Shown one piece after another: positions 11,182 to 35,749 of a stretch of 64,000 bases of DNA. A program made the position numbers and the translations under genes. Origin of the DNA: Bifidobacterium breve (GTDB lineage Bacteria; Actinomycetota; Thermoleophilia; Solirubrobacterales; Solirubrobacteraceae); assembly GCA_945878865.1 (NCBI GenBank), contig CAMCUD010000012.1, forward strand, positions 62,001 to 126,000, given 5' to 3'. Position 1 is the first letter of the stretch; each line of letters opens with the position of its first letter. Under the pieces are notes generated by a model, which saw only the letters and a program-made list of their open reading frames with translations, ran no database searches and was not told where the DNA came from.

Positions 11182-12411
11182 ATGAACGCCACCGCCTCCG
11201 TCGACCTCGCCGGTCTGGACATGAGCGACCTCGCGCTGTGGCGCGAGGGCCCGCCGCACGAGCTCTTCGCGCACCTCCGCAGGGAGGCGCCGATGCACTT
11301 CAGCGCCCTCGGCGACTTCGAGCACGAGCGGGGGTTCTGGTCGGTCGTCCGTCACGAGGACATCGCCGCCGTCGGCCGCGACCACGAGACGTTCTCCTCG
11401 GCGCGGAGCATCGTGCTCGTCGACAAGCTGTCCTGGGATCCCGCCGTGCCCGACCCGATGGACCTCGCGCAGCACATGATGATCACGACGGATCCGCCGC
11501 GGCATGACCGGATGAAGGCGCTCGTCCAGCGCGCCTTCACGCCCAAGCGCGCCCTCGAGCACACCGAGCGGATGCGCGAGATCATCCACCTCGTCTTCGA
11601 TCGCGCCCTCGAGCGCCATCCCGACGGGAAGATCGACCTCGTCCAGGACGTCGGCCAGTACGTCCCGGCGATGGTGATCGGCGAGATGCTCGGCTGCCCG
11701 CGGGAGGACGCCGAGCAGCTCGTCGACTGGACGAACCGCACCACGGCGTTCGAGGACCCGCGTCTCGTGCCCGACCTCGGCGAGATCATGCGGGCGCTCG
11801 AGGAGTTCATCCCGTACGTGAACACCATGATCGAGTCCCGGCGCGTCTCGCCGCAGGACGATCTGACGAGCGCGCTCATCGAGGCGAAGATCGACGGCGA
11901 TCACCTCAGCCACGAGGAGATCCTCATGTTCTTCTTCCTCCTCATGGTGGCGGGCAACGACTCCACCCGCGCGGTCTTCACGTCCGGGATGAAGAACCTC
12001 CTCGAGGACGAGGAGCAGATGCAGCTCGTCCGCTCGGGCGCCGTGCCGCTCGAGGACGTCGTCGAGGAGTTCGTCCGCTTCAACCCCGCGTTCGCGTACA
12101 TGCGGCGGACGGCCACCAAGGACGTCGAGCTGCACGGTCAGCAGATCAAGGCCGGCGACAAGCTCGCGCTCTGGTACGTCTCCGGCAACCGCGACGAGAC
12201 GGTGTTCGACGACCCCAACCGCTTCGACGTCCGCCGTGACACGAGCGCGAGCCAGGGCTTCGGCGCCGGGCTGGCGCGGTTGGAGCTCCGGCTGTGGATC
12301 GAGATCGCGCTCGAGCGCTTCCCCGACCTCACGCTCGACGGGGAGAGCGACCGGCTCGCGTCGACCTTCCTCAACCAGTACCGCTCGATCCCCGTCTCGC
12401 TGCTGGGCTGA
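11182..12411 (+). CDS. Cytochrome P450 homologue lacking the haem-ligand cysteine loop
   Basis: This 409-residue protein aligns by eye with bacterial P450s of the CYP125/142-like kind. The I-helix AGNDSTR, the K-helix EEFVRF (ExxR) and the RRTATKDVELHGQQIKAGD segment are all present. Where the family reads FGxGxHxCxGxxLAR, this protein reads GFGAGLARLE (residues 359-368), so about eight residues including the haem-thiolate Cys are missing in frame. Such a protein could not form a normal P450 haem centre. It is the first gene of a coupled operon with a ChoD-like GMC oxidoreductase. Start ATG 11182 has GGGAGAG upstream. It may be a decayed enzyme, a repurposed protein or a sequence error. Confidence 0.85.
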   Translation: MNATASVDLAGLDMSDLALWREGPPHELFAHLRREAPMHFSALGDFEHERGFWSVVRHEDIAAVGRDHETFSSARSIVLVDKLSWDPAVPDPMDLAQHMMITTDPPRHDRMKALVQRAFTPKRALEHTERMREIIHLVFDRALERHPDGKIDLVQDVGQYVPAMVIGEMLGCPREDAEQLVDWTNRTTAFEDPRLVPDLGEIMRALEEFIPYVNTMIESRRVSPQDDLTSALIEAKIDGDHLSHEEILMFFFLLMVAGNDSTRAVFTSGMKNLLEDEEQMQLVRSGAVPLEDVVEEFVRFNPAFAYMRRTATKDVELHGQQIKAGDKLALWYVSGNRDETVFDDPNRFDVRRDTSASQGFGAGLARLELRLWIEIALERFPDLTLDGESDRLASTFLNQYRSIPVSLLG

Positions 12412-26543: not shown

Positions 26544-27467
26544 ATGCCGCGGCCGCTGCACCATCTCGCCAGCGTCTCGCGCTTCGCCGCCCACCGGGCG
26601 CGGCGCGAGCGTGACGACGCCGCGGCGATGGCGCAGCTCACCGCCGCGCCGCTCGAGCTTCCCTCCGGGCTCGACCTGGCGTGGCTCGGGGTCGCCGGCT
26701 ACCGCCTCACGTACGAGGGGCAGACGATCTTCCTCGACCCGTACGTCTCGCGCGTGTCGTTCGGCGACACGCTGCGCGGGCGCCCGGCGCTGCCCGACCC
26801 TGTGCTCATCGACCGGCACATCCGGCCGCCCGGCGAGGTGCTCGGCGTGCTCGTCGGCCATACCCACTTCGATCACGCCATCGACGTGCCGGCGATCGCC
26901 GCCCGGCACGACTGCCGGGTGTACGGCTCGGACTCGCTGGCGCACCTCATGGCGCTGCACGGCGAGCAGGAGCGGGCGGTGATCGTCGAGCCGCACCGGC
27001 GATACGAGCTCGGCCCGTTCGTCGTGACGTTCGTGCCGAGTCTGCATTCCAAGCTGCTGCTCGGCTACAAGGTCCCGTACGACGGCGAGCTGACGTGCGA
27101 GCACCTCGACGGGCTGAAGCCGGGCGCGTACAGGTGCGGGCAGGTGTACGGCATCCGCATCGAGGTGGCGGGCGTGAGCCTGTACCACCAGGGCAGCGCG
27201 AACCTCATCGAGGACGAGATCCGCGAGCCGGGCGTCGACGTCTTCCTCGCGGGGATCGCCGGACGCAGCTTCACCCCCGACTACTGGCCGCGGATCATCC
27301 GCGCGCTGGAGCCGAAGGTCATCGTCGCTAGCCACTTCGACGACTTCTTCCGCCCGGTCGACGCGCCGATGGGCTTCTCGCTGAACGTCAACCTCGCGGC
27401 GTTCCCCGAGGAGATCGAGGCGGTCACGCGGAACGTGGAGGTCGCAGCGCTGCCCCAGGGGCACTGA
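26544..27467 (+). CDS. Metallo-beta-lactamase-fold hydrolase
   Basis: This 307-residue protein has the MBL metal motif HTHFDHAID (HxHxDH) near residue 111 and later His/Asp ligands (SLHSK, YHQGSAN, ASHFDDFF). It resembles the UlaG/N-acyl-phosphatidylethanolamine phospholipase D-like branch of lipid-active hydrolases; the branch assignment is tentative. It shares an operon with the ABC1 kinase, which suggests lipid chemistry. TAGGCT lies eight bases before the ATG, but it overlaps the upstream stop codon and may be coincidental. The 3' end overlaps the convergent WS/DGAT gene by 44 bases. Confidence 0.87.
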   Translation: MPRPLHHLASVSRFAAHRARRERDDAAAMAQLTAAPLELPSGLDLAWLGVAGYRLTYEGQTIFLDPYVSRVSFGDTLRGRPALPDPVLIDRHIRPPGEVLGVLVGHTHFDHAIDVPAIAARHDCRVYGSDSLAHLMALHGEQERAVIVEPHRRYELGPFVVTFVPSLHSKLLLGYKVPYDGELTCEHLDGLKPGAYRCGQVYGIRIEVAGVSLYHQGSANLIEDEIREPGVDVFLAGIAGRSFTPDYWPRIIRALEPKVIVASHFDDFFRPVDAPMGFSLNVNLAAFPEEIEAVTRNVEVAALPQGH

Positions 27468-28866
27468 CCCGGCGCGGCTGCAGCTCGTCGAGCGCGACGT
27501 GCAGGTGATCAGCGAGCTCGTCGGGGTCGGGCATCTGAGCGCGGTCGGCCACGATGCCGACGTGCAGGCGCCCGGCGTAGCCCACGACGGTGACGTTCAG
27601 GCCGACCCCGTCGACGATCGCCGAGATCGGGTGGAGCGCCTCGACATCCACGCCCGCGCACCGCACGGGCGTCGGCGGTCCGGGCACGTTGGAGATGACC
27701 ACGTTGCACGGCGGCGTGAACGGCGGGAGCGCGGCGAGCCGGGTCACGGTGCGGCTGACGAGCCCGAAGGCGGCCGGCGGGACGAGGGCGTTGGCGTCCT
27801 GGAGCAGCGTCGCGGGCAGGCGCGCGTGGCGGGCCTTGGCGGCCCGCAGCTCGCGCATGGCGGCCGGCAGGCGGCGCGCGGGATCACGGACGTGGGTCGG
27901 GATCGGCACGAGCATCGAGCCGACCTGGTTTCCGCTCGGGGGCGAGGCTCCCGCCCGGCGCAGCGACACGGGCACCATCGCGACGAGCGGCACGGCGGGG
28001 AGCTCGGAGCGACGGAGCAGCCAGCCGCGCAGCGCACCGGCGACGAGGGTGACGACGAGGTCGTTGACCGTGGCGTCGTGGACGGCGCGGGCGGCATGCA
28101 CGGCGTCGAGGTCGAGCGTCGTCAGCGCGACGCTGCGACGCGCGCTGACCCGGCCGTTGAGGCTCGTGCGCGGCGTCGCTGGGACGCCGGCGCGCCGCTG
28201 CAGCGTGACGCGGCGCAGCGTGGCGGCCAGCGGACCGGTGCCGGGCAGGACGCGGGTCATGGGCATGGCGTCGAGGTGGGGGAGCACCCGGGGCAGCGCG
28301 CCGGCGGCGTGGAGCGGGTGCGCGGCGAGCTGCGCGGCCGTCCGGGTGGCGCGGGCGCGATCGGTCGGGGCCGGCGCGAGCGGCGCGGGTGCGCGGTCGG
28401 GACGCCCGCCGAAGAGCGCCGCGAGGATCGCGAGGCCCGCCGCGCCGTCGGTCACGGCGTGATGCGCCTTCATGAGGAGCGCCTGGGCGCCGCCCCGCAG
28501 GCCATCGACGAGGTGGAGCTCCCACAGCGGCAGCCGGCGGTCAAGGGGGCGCTCGTGGATCGTCGCGACGTGCGCGGCGAGCTCCCGCGGGCCGCCGGGC
28601 CAGGGCAGCGTGCCGGCGTGGACGTGCGCGGCCGGATCGGGGGAGCCCGTGTCCTGCCAGCACGGATGCGTGAGGCCGAACGGCATCGGGGCGATGCGGC
28701 GGCGCAGCGCGGGCACGCCGCCCGCCCCGGCGGCCACGAGCCGCCGGACGTCGTCCTCGGTCATCCGCGAGCCGGGCGCGAGCGTGAGCAGGCCGCAGAT
28801 GTGGCCATGGACGCGTCCGTCCTCGATGGCGAGGAACTGGGCGTCCAGGCTCGTGAGCTGCTCCAT
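27424..28866 (-). CDS. Wax ester synthase/diacylglycerol acyltransferase (WS/DGAT)
   Basis: This 480-residue protein starts MEQLTSLDAQFLAIED, typical of the family. It has the catalytic HHxxxDG motif as HHAVTDG (residues 135-141), the PLW region before it, and the later NVVISNVPGPP segment. It esterifies fatty alcohols or diacylglycerol with acyl-CoA, making wax esters or triacylglycerol storage lipid at the membrane. It follows a PlsC-like acyltransferase by only seven bases, so the two form a neutral-lipid operon. The C-terminal Arg-rich tail overlaps the convergent hydrolase gene. Confidence 0.93.
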   Translation of the reverse strand: MEQLTSLDAQFLAIEDGRVHGHICGLLTLAPGSRMTEDDVRRLVAAGAGGVPALRRRIAPMPFGLTHPCWQDTGSPDPAAHVHAGTLPWPGGPRELAAHVATIHERPLDRRLPLWELHLVDGLRGGAQALLMKAHHAVTDGAAGLAILAALFGGRPDRAPAPLAPAPTDRARATRTAAQLAAHPLHAAGALPRVLPHLDAMPMTRVLPGTGPLAATLRRVTLQRRAGVPATPRTSLNGRVSARRSVALTTLDLDAVHAARAVHDATVNDLVVTLVAGALRGWLLRRSELPAVPLVAMVPVSLRRAGASPPSGNQVGSMLVPIPTHVRDPARRLPAAMRELRAAKARHARLPATLLQDANALVPPAAFGLVSRTVTRLAALPPFTPPCNVVISNVPGPPTPVRCAGVDVEALHPISAIVDGVGLNVTVVGYAGRLHVGIVADRAQMPDPDELADHLHVALDELQPRRVSAPGAALRPPRSA

Positions 28867-28873
28867 CGCGCGG

Positions 28874-29764
28874 TCAGCCGAAGACGGGCATCGACCGGCG
28901 GCTGGCCAGGCGGTCCATGCCGGCCTGCAGTGCCGCTTCGACGTCGCGGTAGACCCGGTCGACGTGGGCGTCGTCCTCGGCGAGGTCGGGGTCGTCGCCG
29001 GGGTCGATCGGATCGAGCAGCTCGGTGCGGATCTTCGCCGGCAGCGGCAGGTGCATCGGGAGGATCTCCAGCGCGAGCGGGAAGGGAAACCCGGCGATGA
29101 TCGGCAGGGTCGCGCCGCGGAGATGCGGGCCGAGCCCGGACCAGCGCGCGAGGAACCGGCCCTCGGAGAGGACAAAGACGGTGTCCGCGCCGCCGACCGA
29201 CGCGACGGGCACGATGGGCACGCCCTGGCGGATCGCGAACCGGACGAAGCCCTTGCGGCCGGCGAGGACCACCTGGTCGCGCTTGCGCCAGCTGCGCATC
29301 GCGTCCTGCTCGCCGCCGGGCCACAGCACGACGTCGTGCCCTGCCTCGAACGCGGCGCTCATCGCTTCGACGGTCGGCGGGATGACGCCCATGGCGCGGA
29401 AGTAGTCCCCGAGGCCCGGCGCGGCCATGAGGACGTCGTGAGCCGTCGGGTGCAGGACACGGCCGCGACCGAAGCGCCGGTACCACTGCAGCGCGAGCGT
29501 CCACGCGTCCATGGTCAGCGCCCCGCCGGAGTGGACGCCGACCAGCAGCGCCGGGTCCTCGGGGATGCGGTGGAAGCCGTCCATCTCCATCCGGAAGTAG
29601 TGGTCCATGAGGAGGTTCCAGAACGGCATCTGGAGCTTGAGCAGGCCGAAGTTCGGGCCGTCGACGTTCCAGCCGGCGGCGCGCCGGGCGACGACGCCGG
29701 CAAGGCGGCTCGGCGCCGGCCTCTCGTGCGCGCCGTTGGGCGCCGCGGTGGTCTGGTGCGTCAC
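28874..29764 (-). CDS. Lysophospholipid/monoacylglycerol-type acyltransferase (PlsC/DGAT2-like)
   Basis: This 296-residue protein belongs to the LPLAT superfamily, MGAT-like branch. VGVHSGG (about 74-80) stands in the position of the HxxxxD block. VVLWPGGEQDA (about 145-155) is the FxxPGG block, and GIPIVPV-like substrate strands are present (GVPIVPVAS). It would transfer acyl groups to a glycerolipid acceptor, feeding the downstream WS/DGAT. The upstream region holds two large palindromes, so the operon is probably regulated by a TetR-like repressor. Confidence 0.85.
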   Translation of the reverse strand: MTHQTTAAPNGAHERPAPSRLAGVVARRAAGWNVDGPNFGLLKLQMPFWNLLMDHYFRMEMDGFHRIPEDPALLVGVHSGGALTMDAWTLALQWYRRFGRGRVLHPTAHDVLMAAPGLGDYFRAMGVIPPTVEAMSAAFEAGHDVVLWPGGEQDAMRSWRKRDQVVLAGRKGFVRFAIRQGVPIVPVASVGGADTVFVLSEGRFLARWSGLGPHLRGATLPIIAGFPFPLALEILPMHLPLPAKIRTELLDPIDPGDDPDLAEDDAHVDRVYRDVEAALQAGMDRLASRRSMPVFG

Positions 29765-31463: not shown

Positions 31464-31551
31464 GGCGCGCAGGATGCTCGCATCCCGGGCGGCTGGCGTC
31501 ATCCGGTTGGGGTGACCCGGATCCGCCTCGGGCGTGGGTAGGGTCACGCGC

Positions 31552-31977
31552 ATGAGCGCCACGCCCCCGCCCCCTCCGGGCGCCCCGGATCCGAACGACC
31601 CGACGCGGCAGATGTCGACGCCCTACGACGCGCCGCCTCCGGGTGGGCCGCCGCCCGGCGGCCAGCCGCCCGCCGGCGGCGACAGCGGCGGCAAGGGCTG
31701 GATCATCGCGCTCGGCGTCGGGCTGGTCATCGCGATCGCGCTGCTGCTCTTCGTGCTGCTCTCCGGTGACGACGACAACGACAAGACGTCGACGACGACG
31801 CCCGCGGTCACGGTCGTCCAGCAGCAGCCCACGGTCACCGACGAGATCAAGACCGACGAGATCAAGACGCAGACCGAGGTCCAGACGGTCACCACGCCCG
31901 CGCAGACGGTGACGACGCCCGCGCAGACCGTCACGGTCCCAGCCGAGACGACCCAGGGCGGCGCAACCGTCCCGTAG
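31552..31977 (+). CDS. Single-pass membrane protein with Pro/Gly-rich N-terminus and Thr-rich tail
   Basis: This 141-residue protein has a Pro/Gly-rich cytoplasmic part (residues 1-48), one membrane helix (WIIALGVGLVIAIALLLFVLL, about 50-70) and an acidic then Thr/Val/Gln-rich outer tail. The tail repeats TVTTPAQTVTTPAQTVTVPAET, a likely extended or O-glycosylated stalk. TAGGGT lies seven bases before ATG. No enzymatic motif is present; it looks like an envelope protein of unknown function. Confidence 0.8.
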   Translation: MSATPPPPPGAPDPNDPTRQMSTPYDAPPPGGPPPGGQPPAGGDSGGKGWIIALGVGLVIAIALLLFVLLSGDDDNDKTSTTTPAVTVVQQQPTVTDEIKTDEIKTQTEVQTVTTPAQTVTTPAQTVTVPAETTQGGATVP

Positions 31978-31981
31978 GCCC

Positions 31982-33196
31982 TCAGCCGACGAGCGCGACG
32001 CGCAGCTCCGAGGGGTACGGGCCCTCCCACCGCAGCCGTCCGGCGCGGTGCAGGGTCGGCCCCTCGAGCAGCGCGGTGAGCATCGCCGGGATCTGCGCCC
32101 GGTTGATCTGCTCGCCGAAGCAGGTGTGCAGCCCGTGGCCGAAGTGCAGGTACGCCTCTGCCGGCCGCCCCGGGATGAACGCGTCCGGATCCTCGACGAC
32201 CTCGTCGTCGAACATCGCGGCCTGCAGCCCGCAGAACACGATGGCGCCGGCAGGGATCGTCGTCTCGCGTGACGTGCCCGCGGCGATCACGCGGTCGTGC
32301 GCGCAGGTCCGCAGCACCGCGACGGCCTGCGGGCGGAAGCGCAAGGCCTCGAACGCGATGGCGGCCACGGCGTCGCGGTCGCCCGCGCGTGCGGCTTCCT
32401 GCGCGGCCGACAGCTCGGTCGGCCGTTCGAGCAGCTCCTCGACGATGTTCGCCAGCGCCTTGCCCACCGTCGGGATCCAGCCGGAGATAAGCCCGATGAG
32501 GTTGTGGCGGATCGCGACGTCGTGGAGCGCCGGCTCGTCTCCCGCCCGCCGGGCGCGCAGCAGGCGCCCGAGGACGTCGTCGGCTTGCAGCTCACCCGCC
32601 GCCGCGCGTTCGGCGATGAGCGCGTCGAGGTGCGGGCGCCACGCTGCGGCGTCGTCCTGCGCGCGCCGGCGGATGCTCGGCAGGTTGCCGACGTTGAGGA
32701 AGATCTCCTCGAACAGCGAGCGCGCCCAGCGGCACTGGGTCGCGCGGTCAGGGCCGGGGGCGCCGAGGTAGCTCGCGATGAGCTCGTCGACGACCGGATC
32801 GCACAGGTCCGAGACGACATCGAGCTCCGCGCCCGCGGCGGCGATCCGGCGCCGGGCGACGGCAAGGGCGACGTCGCCCAGCGCCGGGACGTCCTGCGGG
32901 CGCACCGCGGCGCGCAGCGCCGCGTGGTCGTGGCGGTACAACGGCGTGTCGTCCAGCCCCAGGATGAACGGGCCGGTGAGCGCCTCCATCTTCGGCGCGT
33001 AGTGGGCGACGGTGAACGCCTGGTGGTCGCCCAGCGCCTCCCGGACGTCGTCCGCGCGGGCGAGCACGGCGACCTTGCCCGCCACCGTGATCGGCCGATG
33101 GCGGCGCAGCCGCCGCAGCACGTCGAGCGACCAGCGGTCCAGCGCCCGGCCGGCGCCGTCGGCGAGGTCCTCAGTAAGGTCGGCGACGACCGTCAT
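31982..33196 (-). CDS. Cytochrome P450 with atypical I-helix (fourth gene of the DyP operon)
   Basis: This 404-residue protein has a complete haem-binding loop HFGHGLHTCFGEQ (ligand Cys359), the K-helix EALRFRP (ExxR) and typical P450 spacing. The I-helix reads GLISGWIPTVGKA, so the acid/alcohol pair that activates O2 is missing. A Pro occupies the region where H2O2-using CYP152 enzymes have Arg-Pro. The start overlaps the DyP stop as ATGA. No ferredoxin or reductase gene is nearby. Use of peroxide, or catalysis of an isomerase-like reaction, is inferred; substrate unknown. Confidence 0.9.
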   Translation of the reverse strand: MTVVADLTEDLADGAGRALDRWSLDVLRRLRRHRPITVAGKVAVLARADDVREALGDHQAFTVAHYAPKMEALTGPFILGLDDTPLYRHDHAALRAAVRPQDVPALGDVALAVARRRIAAAGAELDVVSDLCDPVVDELIASYLGAPGPDRATQCRWARSLFEEIFLNVGNLPSIRRRAQDDAAAWRPHLDALIAERAAAGELQADDVLGRLLRARRAGDEPALHDVAIRHNLIGLISGWIPTVGKALANIVEELLERPTELSAAQEAARAGDRDAVAAIAFEALRFRPQAVAVLRTCAHDRVIAAGTSRETTIPAGAIVFCGLQAAMFDDEVVEDPDAFIPGRPAEAYLHFGHGLHTCFGEQINRAQIPAMLTALLEGPTLHRAGRLRWEGPYPSELRVALVG

Positions 33197-34578
33197 CCCG
33201 TGACCCCGTCGGCGATCGCGCCCAGCGCGGTGAGCCCCGGGACGAACAGGTAGTCGCCGCCGCGCGTCGTGACGAATGGGCCCTGCGGCGCGAGGTAGAA
33301 CGGCGGGTCGTCGCCGGTCGCGCCCGGGACGACCATGCTCCCGCCGTTCTGACCGCCGAGGAGCCAGTCGGTGTCGTGGCCGAGTCCGAAGACGTTGCCG
33401 TCGTTGAGCCACTGGACCTGGATGCCCTCGAACTGGCGGGAGATGCTCGCGTTGAAGCACACAAACACCAGCCCGCGGTCCGCGCCGTCGTCCTCGAGCA
33501 CGCCCTCGGCGAGCGGCTCGCCGTAGGGCATGCCGCGCCGGATGATCCGGTGGCGGAAGCTCAGCCGGCCCTCGAACCCCAGCGCGTCGCGCGGGTTGGA
33601 GCGGCGCACGTGCGCGCCGAGCGGGCACCGGCGCCCGTCCTCGTCGTCGCCGTAGAGGAACGCGTTGGCGCCCGGCGCGGTCGCGTCGAACGTCCCCGGG
33701 TCGATCGGGTGGCTGACGAGCGGCGCGCCGTCCTCCCAGCGGCCGACGACCTTCGCGCGCAGCAGGCGCTCGTCGCCTCCCGCGTAGCGCGCCGCGGCGG
33801 CCGCGACGGTGCGGCGGAACAGCGCGACGTCCTGCCGCAGCTTGCGCCACACCATGTACGTGCCGTTGCGTCCGAGCGGCGAGGCCGGCGCGCTCGGCAG
33901 CCGGCCCTGCGGGTCCACCCGCGTGTCTTCGTCGGGGTAGCCGAGGATGAACTCGCCGGGCGCCAGCGCGCGCCAGCGGCCCGCGCGCAGCGGCACGCCG
34001 CCGCCTTCGGCCCGGTCGTCGCTCGCGCCCTCGATCGCGGGCTGCGCGAAGCCGTCGGCGAACCCGAAGTGCTCACGCGCGCCGTCGAGCGTGTGCGCGT
34101 GCTCTTCATGGGCGATCTCCAGGCCGTGCCGGACGACCTCGGTGCGCAGCTCCGTCAGCGCGGCCTCGAGCTCGCGCTCCCCGAGCCCGTTGAGCGTCAC
34201 CAGGACGTGCGGGTGCCGCAGGCCGCCATCCCACTGCTCGGGCGAGCTGGAACCCGTGTCGCCGAGCACCTTGGCGCGCAGCTCCATGCCTTCGAGGAAC
34301 TCGTCGCTGAATGTCCGCAGGACGCGCTCGGGCACGCCCAGGGCCGCCAGCCCCGGGGCGCTGAACGCCACGTTCCACGCGCACGAAGGTTTCTCGGCGC
34401 CGGGCCACGGCGCGGCATTCATCACCCGGTCGGCGATCGCGCGCAGCCAGTCCCGGCCCCCGGTCGGGTCGCGGATCGTCACGAAGACGTAGCTCGTGCG
34501 CCCGTACGCGTTGCCGTACGCGCGCAGGATGTCGCCCTGGATGTCGCCGAGGTCCAGCGCGGTCGCGGTGGCGGTCAT
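33193..34578 (-). CDS. DyP-type haem peroxidase
   Basis: This 461-residue protein has the DyP signature GFADG (172-176) with distal Asp175, the proximal His323 in CPLGAHVRRSNPRD, and the R-x-x-R-region IIRRGMPYGEP. It ends in the usual VFVCFNASISRQFEGIQ barrel. It lacks a Tat signal, so it acts in the cytoplasm. It oxidises dyes, phenols or other substrates with H2O2. It overlaps both neighbours by four bases (ATGA), so its production is tied to the FYSAYP proteins upstream and the P450 downstream. The natural substrate is unknown. Confidence 0.93.
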   Translation of the reverse strand: MTATATALDLGDIQGDILRAYGNAYGRTSYVFVTIRDPTGGRDWLRAIADRVMNAAPWPGAEKPSCAWNVAFSAPGLAALGVPERVLRTFSDEFLEGMELRAKVLGDTGSSSPEQWDGGLRHPHVLVTLNGLGERELEAALTELRTEVVRHGLEIAHEEHAHTLDGAREHFGFADGFAQPAIEGASDDRAEGGGVPLRAGRWRALAPGEFILGYPDEDTRVDPQGRLPSAPASPLGRNGTYMVWRKLRQDVALFRRTVAAAAARYAGGDERLLRAKVVGRWEDGAPLVSHPIDPGTFDATAPGANAFLYGDDEDGRRCPLGAHVRRSNPRDALGFEGRLSFRHRIIRRGMPYGEPLAEGVLEDDGADRGLVFVCFNASISRQFEGIQVQWLNDGNVFGLGHDTDWLLGGQNGGSMVVPGATGDDPPFYLAPQGPFVTTRGGDYLFVPGLTALGAIADGVTG

Positions 34579-35147
34579 GATCCGCCCACCTCGGCGAGGA
34601 AGCGCCGCTGCAGCTCCTCGGCCGTCAGCATCGGCGCGTCGACCGCGAGCGCCCGCAGCGCGGCCTGCTGGCGCAGCACCCGCCGGACCTCGCCGACGGT
34701 CGTGTTCGGGTACGCGCTGTAGAACAGCCCCGTGTCGATCTGGTTGTGGCGCAGGTAGCGGACCAGGTCGGCGCCCTCGGCCGGGTCGGGCGCGTTGATG
34801 CAGTGCCGCCAGATCATGCGCGTCTCGGGCGCCAGCTCGGCGCACAGCTCCTCGAGGTAGCTCTGGATGTCCCCGTCGATGCAGCAGGTGAAGATGAGGT
34901 GCGGGCAGCCCATCGTGTCGGCGCCACCCTGCGACGGGTCGGTGACGAAGTCCTCGCAGACCACCCAGCGACCGAAGTGGGTGCGGGGCAGGCGCGCGAG
35001 CGGGCTCGGTCCGTCGCCGGCCCCGAGCGCCTCGAGGTCAGCGCGCAGCAGGTCCTCGTGCCCGGCCTTGATCGGGGTGAGCGCCATGAACGCCGACGCC
35101 TGCCCGCAGCGGTTGCCGTCCCGGAGCGCGGTGAGATCTAACAGCAT
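34575..35147 (-). CDS. FYSAYP-motif protein B, unknown function
   Basis: This 190-residue protein is a paralogue of the upstream gene product. They share GNRxGxAxA near the N-terminus, SxLxRLxxxHFxRW (here SPLARLPRTHFGRW), xPHLxF, a YLxxN stretch and FYSAYPxxTxxxxxRxL (here LFYSAYPNTT). The conserved His-Phe-x-Arg-Trp strand and pairing with a DyP peroxidase suggest an alpha/beta (ferredoxin-like) fold related to DyP half-domains; this is inference. It has several cysteines (CGQ, CED, CCIDG, CAEL, HCINA). It overlaps the upstream gene by 10 bases and the DyP gene by four. Confidence 0.78.
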   Translation of the reverse strand: MLLDLTALRDGNRCGQASAFMALTPIKAGHEDLLRADLEALGAGDGPSPLARLPRTHFGRWVVCEDFVTDPSQGGADTMGCPHLIFTCCIDGDIQSYLEELCAELAPETRMIWRHCINAPDPAEGADLVRYLRHNQIDTGLFYSAYPNTTVGEVRRVLRQQAALRALAVDAPMLTAEELQRRFLAEVGGS

Positions 35148-35749
35148 CGCTGCGCCTCGGCCATGAGCGTGCCGAACGCGGCGGCGAACTCGTCGGGCGG
35201 CATGTCGGCGGCCCGGGCGCGCAGGTCGGCGAGGAGCTCGTCGAGCTCCAGGGCCCGCGTGATCTGTGTGGCCGTCGCCTGCGGGTAGGCGGAGTAGAAG
35301 TGGCTCGCCTCCATCTCGTTGGCCTTGATGTACGCCTTGAACGGGCCGGTCGGCAGCGCCTTGGGGAAGCCGTAGGAGCTGCCCCAGAACAGCCACATCC
35401 CGCGGGTGAGGATGTGGGAGAACGCGTCGATGTACTCCTCCCAGCCGCCGTTGAAGTTGCTCTCGAAGTAGAGGTGGGGATGGCGCAGCTTGATCTCCGG
35501 CTGCGGCGCGCCGTTGTACGGGATCTCGCGGATGAGGCTCCACCGCGCGAAGTGGATGAACGACAGCCGCTGCAGCGTGGAGATCGTCTGCGGCGCGATC
35601 TTCGGGACGGTGAAGACGACGGGCAGTGCGGCCCGTCCCCACCACTTCACCGTGCTGAACACGGTGATGGCGATGGCATAGCCGTCGCGGTTGCCGGGCC
35701 GGGTCCCGGTGGCCGTCGTCGGAGTGGTCAGCGACGCCGTGGCGTTCAT
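35138..35749 (-). CDS. FYSAYP-motif protein A, unknown function (first gene of the DyP/P450 operon)
   Basis: This 203-residue protein shares the order of motifs with protein B: GNRDGYAIA, STLQRLSFIHFARW, HPHLYFESNFNG, YIKAN and SHFYSAYPQATATQITRAL. A hydrophobic patch (GMWLFWGSSYGFP) could dock onto a haem protein or membrane. I know of no characterised function for the family. Together with B, the DyP peroxidase and the P450 it makes a four-gene operon in which every junction overlaps, so the four products are probably made in fixed proportion and may form a complex. Confidence 0.78.
   Translation of the reverse strand: MNATASLTTPTTATGTRPGNRDGYAIAITVFSTVKWWGRAALPVVFTVPKIAPQTISTLQRLSFIHFARWSLIREIPYNGAPQPEIKLRHPHLYFESNFNGGWEEYIDAFSHILTRGMWLFWGSSYGFPKALPTGPFKAYIKANEMEASHFYSAYPQATATQITRALELDELLADLRARAADMPPDEFAAAFGTLMAEAQRCC

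Follow-up and report, generated by a model that had tools for sequence, protein, structure and literature searches.

We analyzed a window of 64,000 nucleotides and examined four genes on its minus strand that follow one another in the order A, B, DyP, and P450 from 35749 to 31982. The genes and the motifs discussed below are listed here in the order in which they are read.

35138-35749, minus strand: gene A, 203 aa, DyP companion protein with no family match
35540-35569, minus strand: motif RLSFIHFARW of A
35420-35458, minus strand: motif NFNGGWEEYIDAF of A
35282-35299, minus strand: motif FYSAYP of A
34575-35147, minus strand: gene B, 190 aa, paralogue of A
34965-34994, minus strand: motif RLPRTHFGRW of B
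34890-34904, minus strand: motif PHLIF of B
34707-34724, minus strand: motif FYSAYP of B
33193-34578, minus strand: DyP gene (gene 3), 461 aa, DyP-type peroxidase
34051-34065, minus strand: motif GFADG of the DyP (GxxDG motif)
within 33601-33627, minus strand: proximal-His motif CPLGAH of the DyP
33535-33552, minus strand: distal Arg region of the DyP, HRIIRR
31982-33196, minus strand: P450 gene (gene 4), 404 aa, cytochrome P450
32468-32485, minus strand: P450 I-helix SGWIPT, without the acid-alcohol pair
32114-32143, minus strand: Cys-ligand motif FGHGLHTCFG of the P450, kept

Gene A overlaps gene B by 10 bases, B overlaps the DyP gene by 4 bases, and the DyP gene overlaps the P450 gene by 4 bases, which bears out the original prediction of an overlapping, translationally coupled four-gene operon. 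A divergent gene on the plus strand, starting at about 35838, bounds the operon upstream, and a convergent gene (31534-31977) bounds it downstream; simple scans for a promoter and a terminator found neither. In the window and 30 loci fetched from relatives, the A-B junction was -20 to +21 nt in 30 of 31 cases, the B-DyP junction -13 to +4 nt in 32 of 32, and the DyP-P450 junction -23 to +9 nt in 10 of 10. Conservation of these tight junctions among relatives is more than chance. Downstream of the operon, at 27424-29764 on the minus strand, we noted by eye acyltransferase-like and wax-ester-synthase-like frames, a lipid setting that may be coincidental.

The product of gene 3 exceeded the cutoffs of PF21105 (40.6 bits, cutoff 27.5), PF20628 (27.7 bits, cutoff 20), and TIGR01413 (104.7 bits, cutoff 100.5). 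Its catalytic Asp and His are invariant in the 30 operon DyPs and in the 62 alignable DyPs from the fusion proteins described below, and the distal Arg is kept in 29 of the 30 operon DyPs (the remaining one has a gap) and in all 62 fusion DyPs. Judged by these profiles and residues, the product is a DyP-type peroxidase. For most DyPs, neither the substrate nor the role in nature is settled.

The proteins encoded by A and B had been described as paralogues with no nameable function. The motifs RL-x3-HF-x-RW, PHL-x-F, and FYSAYP are indeed common to both, and the E-values of a direct alignment (27% identity, E 2.6e-11) and of a profile-profile alignment (E 1.5e-35 over 179 columns) agree on the relationship. 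Searches of Pfam, NCBIfam, and PHROGs returned no match for either protein, in line with the second part of that description, and neither has a sequence relative in the PDB. The AlphaFold models, which are of fair confidence for A (pLDDT 83) and confident for B (pLDDT 93), each contain a ferredoxin-like core and two C-terminal helices. Their structural neighbors are mostly dimeric alpha+beta-barrel proteins, with best Z scores of 7.6 for A and 8.1 for B, middling values obtained by comparing monomer models; Foldseek returned no match for either model under E 1e-3. A and B are thus predicted to be ferredoxin-like alpha+beta-barrel domains, the same fold class as the ABM proteins, but they differ from the latter in their extra C-terminal helix pair, their family-specific motifs, and the absence of a Pfam ABM match. 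Neither matched the ABM profile PF03992, which gave a subthreshold match in one Rhodococcus relative. We considered a membrane anchor in the window's A protein but do not claim one, as Kyte-Doolittle hydropathy reaches no more than 1.08 in its most hydrophobic segment.

One role proposed earlier for the pair was haem delivery. Some alpha+beta-barrel proteins bind haem (IsdG and HemQ; PMC4835899), but the alignment of A contains no invariant His or Cys, and the invariant residues of the wider companion family (Arg, Phe, Gly, and Tyr) are not a typical set of haem ligands. Moreover, according to the available text of PMC10820274, the DyP of Deinococcus radiodurans was produced recombinantly and studied in its haem-bound form, apparently without the protein encoded next to it. 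We regard it as highly improbable that A and B deliver haem to the DyP and the P450 or help these enzymes to fold.

We then asked what the companion proteins are linked to in other bacteria. When 232 genomes of the order were searched with A, 28 had a match, and B nearly always adjoined it. In all 31 A-containing loci that we examined in the order (the window and the 30 fetched loci), a DyP gene adjoins A or B, the A/B-type genes lying directly before it; in one of these loci, the companion has two domains only. Outside the order, 5 of 5 genomes of the phylum with an A-like match have a DyP adjoining or close by, and the A/B-type protein is encoded directly before a DyP or fused to one in 15 of 15 plasmid loci spanning Actinomycetota, Alpha- and Gammaproteobacteria, Deinococcota, Cyanobacteriota, and Acidobacteriota (D. 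radiodurans, Acinetobacter, Paracoccus, Sphingomonas, Rhodococcus, Streptomyces, two Nostoc, Gloeothece, Granulicella, and five other alphaproteobacteria). The relationship also appears when the search starts from the peroxidase: DyPs of the order without an A match beside them have a single adjoining companion domain in 5 of 5 cases, and more distant DyPs have one in 6 of 10, with none in three and the last at a contig end. In the loci examined, A/B-type proteins are therefore not encoded mostly far from DyP genes, the outcome that would have counted against a functional link.

The further gene beside companion and DyP varies. Depending on the locus, the extra gene encodes a P450, a DUF4331 protein, or a catalase-family protein, the last in Deinococcus, Paracoccus, Sphingomonas, Rhodococcus, and Acinetobacter; at one locus, a gene near A-B-DyP specifies a haem peroxidase of the animal type (L044, 8885-10825, minus strand), and this neighboring gene was the only place where PF03098 was seen. 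A P450 gene directly follows the DyP gene in 10 of the 31 loci of the order, or about a third. Because most A-B-DyP loci have no P450, the P450 is not needed for the core. The constant unit is the companion plus DyP, not A/B-DyP-P450, and the P450 joins it as an optional partner. Several genomes of one genus also have a conserved protein of about 480 to 510 aa encoded directly upstream of A-B-DyP (L052, 5926-7362; L055, 5807-7330; L049, 10328-11854), which gave no Pfam or NCBIfam match when the L052 copy was searched and is preceded in some genomes by an alpha/beta hydrolase. In a same-genus draft genome, the DyP is split over two frames (L033, 6928-8702), reflecting a frameshift or an assembly error.

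In other bacteria, the same parts occur in a single chain. A scan of a genome collection by companion similarity, from which we took the best 80 of 327 relatives, together with three plasmids, returned 83 alphaproteobacterial loci, all of which carry P450, companion, and DyP domains in one frame of 1,160 to 1,630 residues in the order P450-(B)-A-DyP. Profiles recovered all four domains in 42 of the 83 fusions; the A match was below threshold or displaced in 27, and the B match likewise in 14. Most of these loci come from Mesorhizobium relatives, so the 83 are far from independent events and are not a phylogenetic sample; the same architecture is present in Novosphingobium and Sulfitobacter. 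In Skermanella, a B-TM-A protein, a DyP, and a P450 are encoded by three adjacent genes. Membrane helices are predicted between B and A in the Skermanella protein and in three fusions that we read directly.

When proteins that are separate in some organisms are fused in others, this is a standard sign of physical or functional association. Because the same parts are fused in other bacteria, the four parts very probably work as one machine, and we infer that their products would form a physical complex in this organism. The earlier reading of a peroxide-driven oxidation system with a dedicated accessory pair is therefore upheld in outline, both as regards the pair, which is tied to DyP, and, in view of the 83 fusions, as regards the four genes being one functional unit. 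It needs correction in that the invariant core consists of A/B and DyP only, with the P450 replaced elsewhere, often by a catalase-family protein, or by other enzymes.

These data also bear on whether A and B are enzymes in their own right (a cofactor-free ABM-like oxygenase, an isomerase, or a lyase), with the operon encoding a short pathway that requires no contact between its enzymes. The nearest folds include ABM-type monooxygenases, methylmuconolactone isomerase, and hydroxynitrile lyase, and each protein has invariant polar residues, Tyr106 in A and Arg60 and Cys116 in B (Cys116 in a 30-row alignment). However, the invariant residues of A are not those of B, the linkage across phyla is to DyP itself while the further genes vary, and there are direct fusions of A-type domains to DyP, which suits a subunit better than a pathway step. 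We consider this alternative unlikely. A and B are best read as dedicated subunits of the DyP, as one of the options in the original prediction had it, and both the linkage and the fusions favor that option. An A/B heterodimer docking on the DyP would be an attractive arrangement because DyP has a double ferredoxin-like alpha+beta-barrel fold of its own (PMC4835899).

The fourth gene encodes a P450 that matches PF00067 at 42.4 bits (cutoff 22.8). The I-helix of a P450 usually reads A/G-G-x-D/E-T-T/S. In the window P450, Ile-Pro stands where the acid-alcohol pair (D/E-T) is expected. As a control, we examined the other P450s of the same genome, of which 18 of 25 regions were readable and 7 were left out; Thr is kept in 18 of these 18 and Asp or Glu in 17, and the window P450 is the only one of the 19 readable sequences in which the pair is wholly lost. 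The claim that this P450 has no O2-activating residues thus withstood comparison with its own genome. A second P450-like match in the window lies at about 11476-12270 on the plus strand, in two pieces within one 457-codon frame (G000:C12:73476-74270).

Loss of the acid residue is shared by the P450s linked to DyP. The I-helix reads G[FW]xPT in 9 of 10 operon P450s and in every one of the 61 fusion P450s that could be aligned; all 72 aligned linked P450s retain the haem-binding Cys. More distant DyP-linked P450s have GPLAL, AWVAS, GGPPQP, or AGYLST at this position (with the motif mostly placed by eye), and the acid residue is kept in none of the DyP-linked P450s examined. The P450 was found in 11 genomes of the order, all 11 of which have A-B-DyP, adjacent in 10, a co-occurrence with a hypergeometric probability of 1e-11 when relatedness is ignored. 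In a tree sampled by similarity, which shows consistency and is no test of origin, a single supported group, apart from the genome's other P450s, unites those of the operons, Skermanella, and the fusions with one unlinked relative. At locus L207 (2247-5141, minus strand), we noted by eye a frame in which a P450 comes after a lipase-like alpha/beta hydrolase part and which overlaps the DyP gene by 4 bases; it is apparently a second P450 lineage paired with a companion and a DyP.

The missing acid-alcohol pair is consistent with chemistry driven by peroxide or hydroperoxide, and from these residues we infer such chemistry for the window P450, which probably uses an O-O bond rather than NAD(P)H and O2. 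The competing explanation is that this P450 works as an ordinary NAD(P)H/O2 monooxygenase with a ferredoxin whose gene lies elsewhere, the DyP clearing leaked peroxide. The original prediction had pointed to the absence of an electron-transfer partner gene. There is indeed none inside the operon, but the genome has roughly 25 P450 loci and only four Fer2 ferredoxin-type matches, none of them on the operon's contig, and no Fer4_15 match. Because P450s at some 25 loci must mostly rely on distant partners, the absence of a redox-partner gene is uninformative, and we dropped it as evidence for peroxide use once these counts were made. Shared, distant partners being the rule here, an ordinary P450 could work in the same way. 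The alignment of PDB matches adds that EryK, too, has no acid residue; since this loss is tolerated in EryK, loss of the acid by itself is not decisive. Against an ordinary monooxygenase, Pro replaces Thr in nearly all linked P450s while the 18 other readable P450s of the genome all keep Thr, and the directly read fusions carry a peroxidase and no recognizable reductase part. We judge an ordinary monooxygenase to be quite unlikely.

Our preferred reading, which we hold to be reasonably probable, is that the four genes encode one haem-enzyme assembly, with A and B as DyP subunits and the P450 acting on O-O bonds. A and B, probably not haem ligating, would pair and dock on the DyP, where they would probably gate its haem or present its substrate. 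The DyP would react with H2O2 or an organic hydroperoxide. Although it keeps its haem thiolate, the P450 has lost the residues for protonating bound O2; it would be held in the same assembly and would use the O-O bond of H2O2 or of a hydroperoxide processed by the complex. The substrate may be hydrophobic or lipid-like.

Among known systems, the CYP152 peroxygenases (P450 BS-beta and OleT) offer a parallel for the P450, as their acid-alcohol pair is replaced by Arg-Pro (PMC5818669). The window P450 likewise has Pro at the Thr position; unlike CYP152, it has Ile and no carboxylate-binding Arg, and no entry named CYP152 was among its PDB matches at E 1e-10. It also scored far below the cutoff for the P450-derived glycosyltransferase activators (TIGR04515; 59.5 bits, cutoff 343). 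According to the available text of PMC13049297, thromboxane synthase and the P450 partners in fungal fusions, the latter acting on hydroperoxides, use peroxides without redox partners, and peroxide-isomerizing P450s function with a nonpolar residue beside the haem. The fungal dioxygenase-P450 fusions (PpoA and the linoleate diol synthases) and the oomycete CYP5619 unite a P450 with a haem peroxidase-type domain in one chain, and the available text of PMC13049297 and PMC5919972 describes no A/B-like protein for them. These fusions are eukaryotic and have a peroxidase half of the haem peroxidase/dioxygenase type; the operon peroxidase is a DyP and is not of the PF03098 type that marks the fungal proteins. 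The fusions and the P450s without an O2-activating pair suggest that bacteria have a peroxidase-P450 system, and we found no description of a DyP/P450/companion system in the open-access literature searched. We tentatively propose that it may be a DyP-based counterpart of the fungal oxylipin synthases, membrane bound when fused, in which the A/B-bound DyP would make or trim a hydroperoxide or radical on a hydrophobic substrate, the P450 would split the O-O bond without a redox partner, and the companions would serve as an obligatory activating subunit of this DyP branch across bacteria. Self-sufficient P450 chemistry of this kind could be of practical use.

The closest solved relative of the window DyP is that of D. 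radiodurans (E 6e-60; DR_A0145; PDB 8re2 and 8re3; PMC10820274), and the DyP of the D. radiodurans plasmid locus matches 8re3 over its whole length. The available text of that study reports the enzyme as inactive at physiological pH and has its authors speculating on protein partners; it also gives Met190 in place of Gly in the GxxDG motif, whereas the window DyP has the canonical GFADG. In the D. radiodurans genome, a companion-family gene (L066, 5809-6540) ends directly before the gene of the solved DyP, and a catalase-family gene lies downstream; this locus thus has one companion and a catalase-family gene where the window has two companions and a P450. The companion family supplies concrete, widely conserved candidate partner genes for DyPs, and the D. 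radiodurans DyP with its upstream companion gene provides a concrete test case, which we consider the most useful outcome of this analysis.
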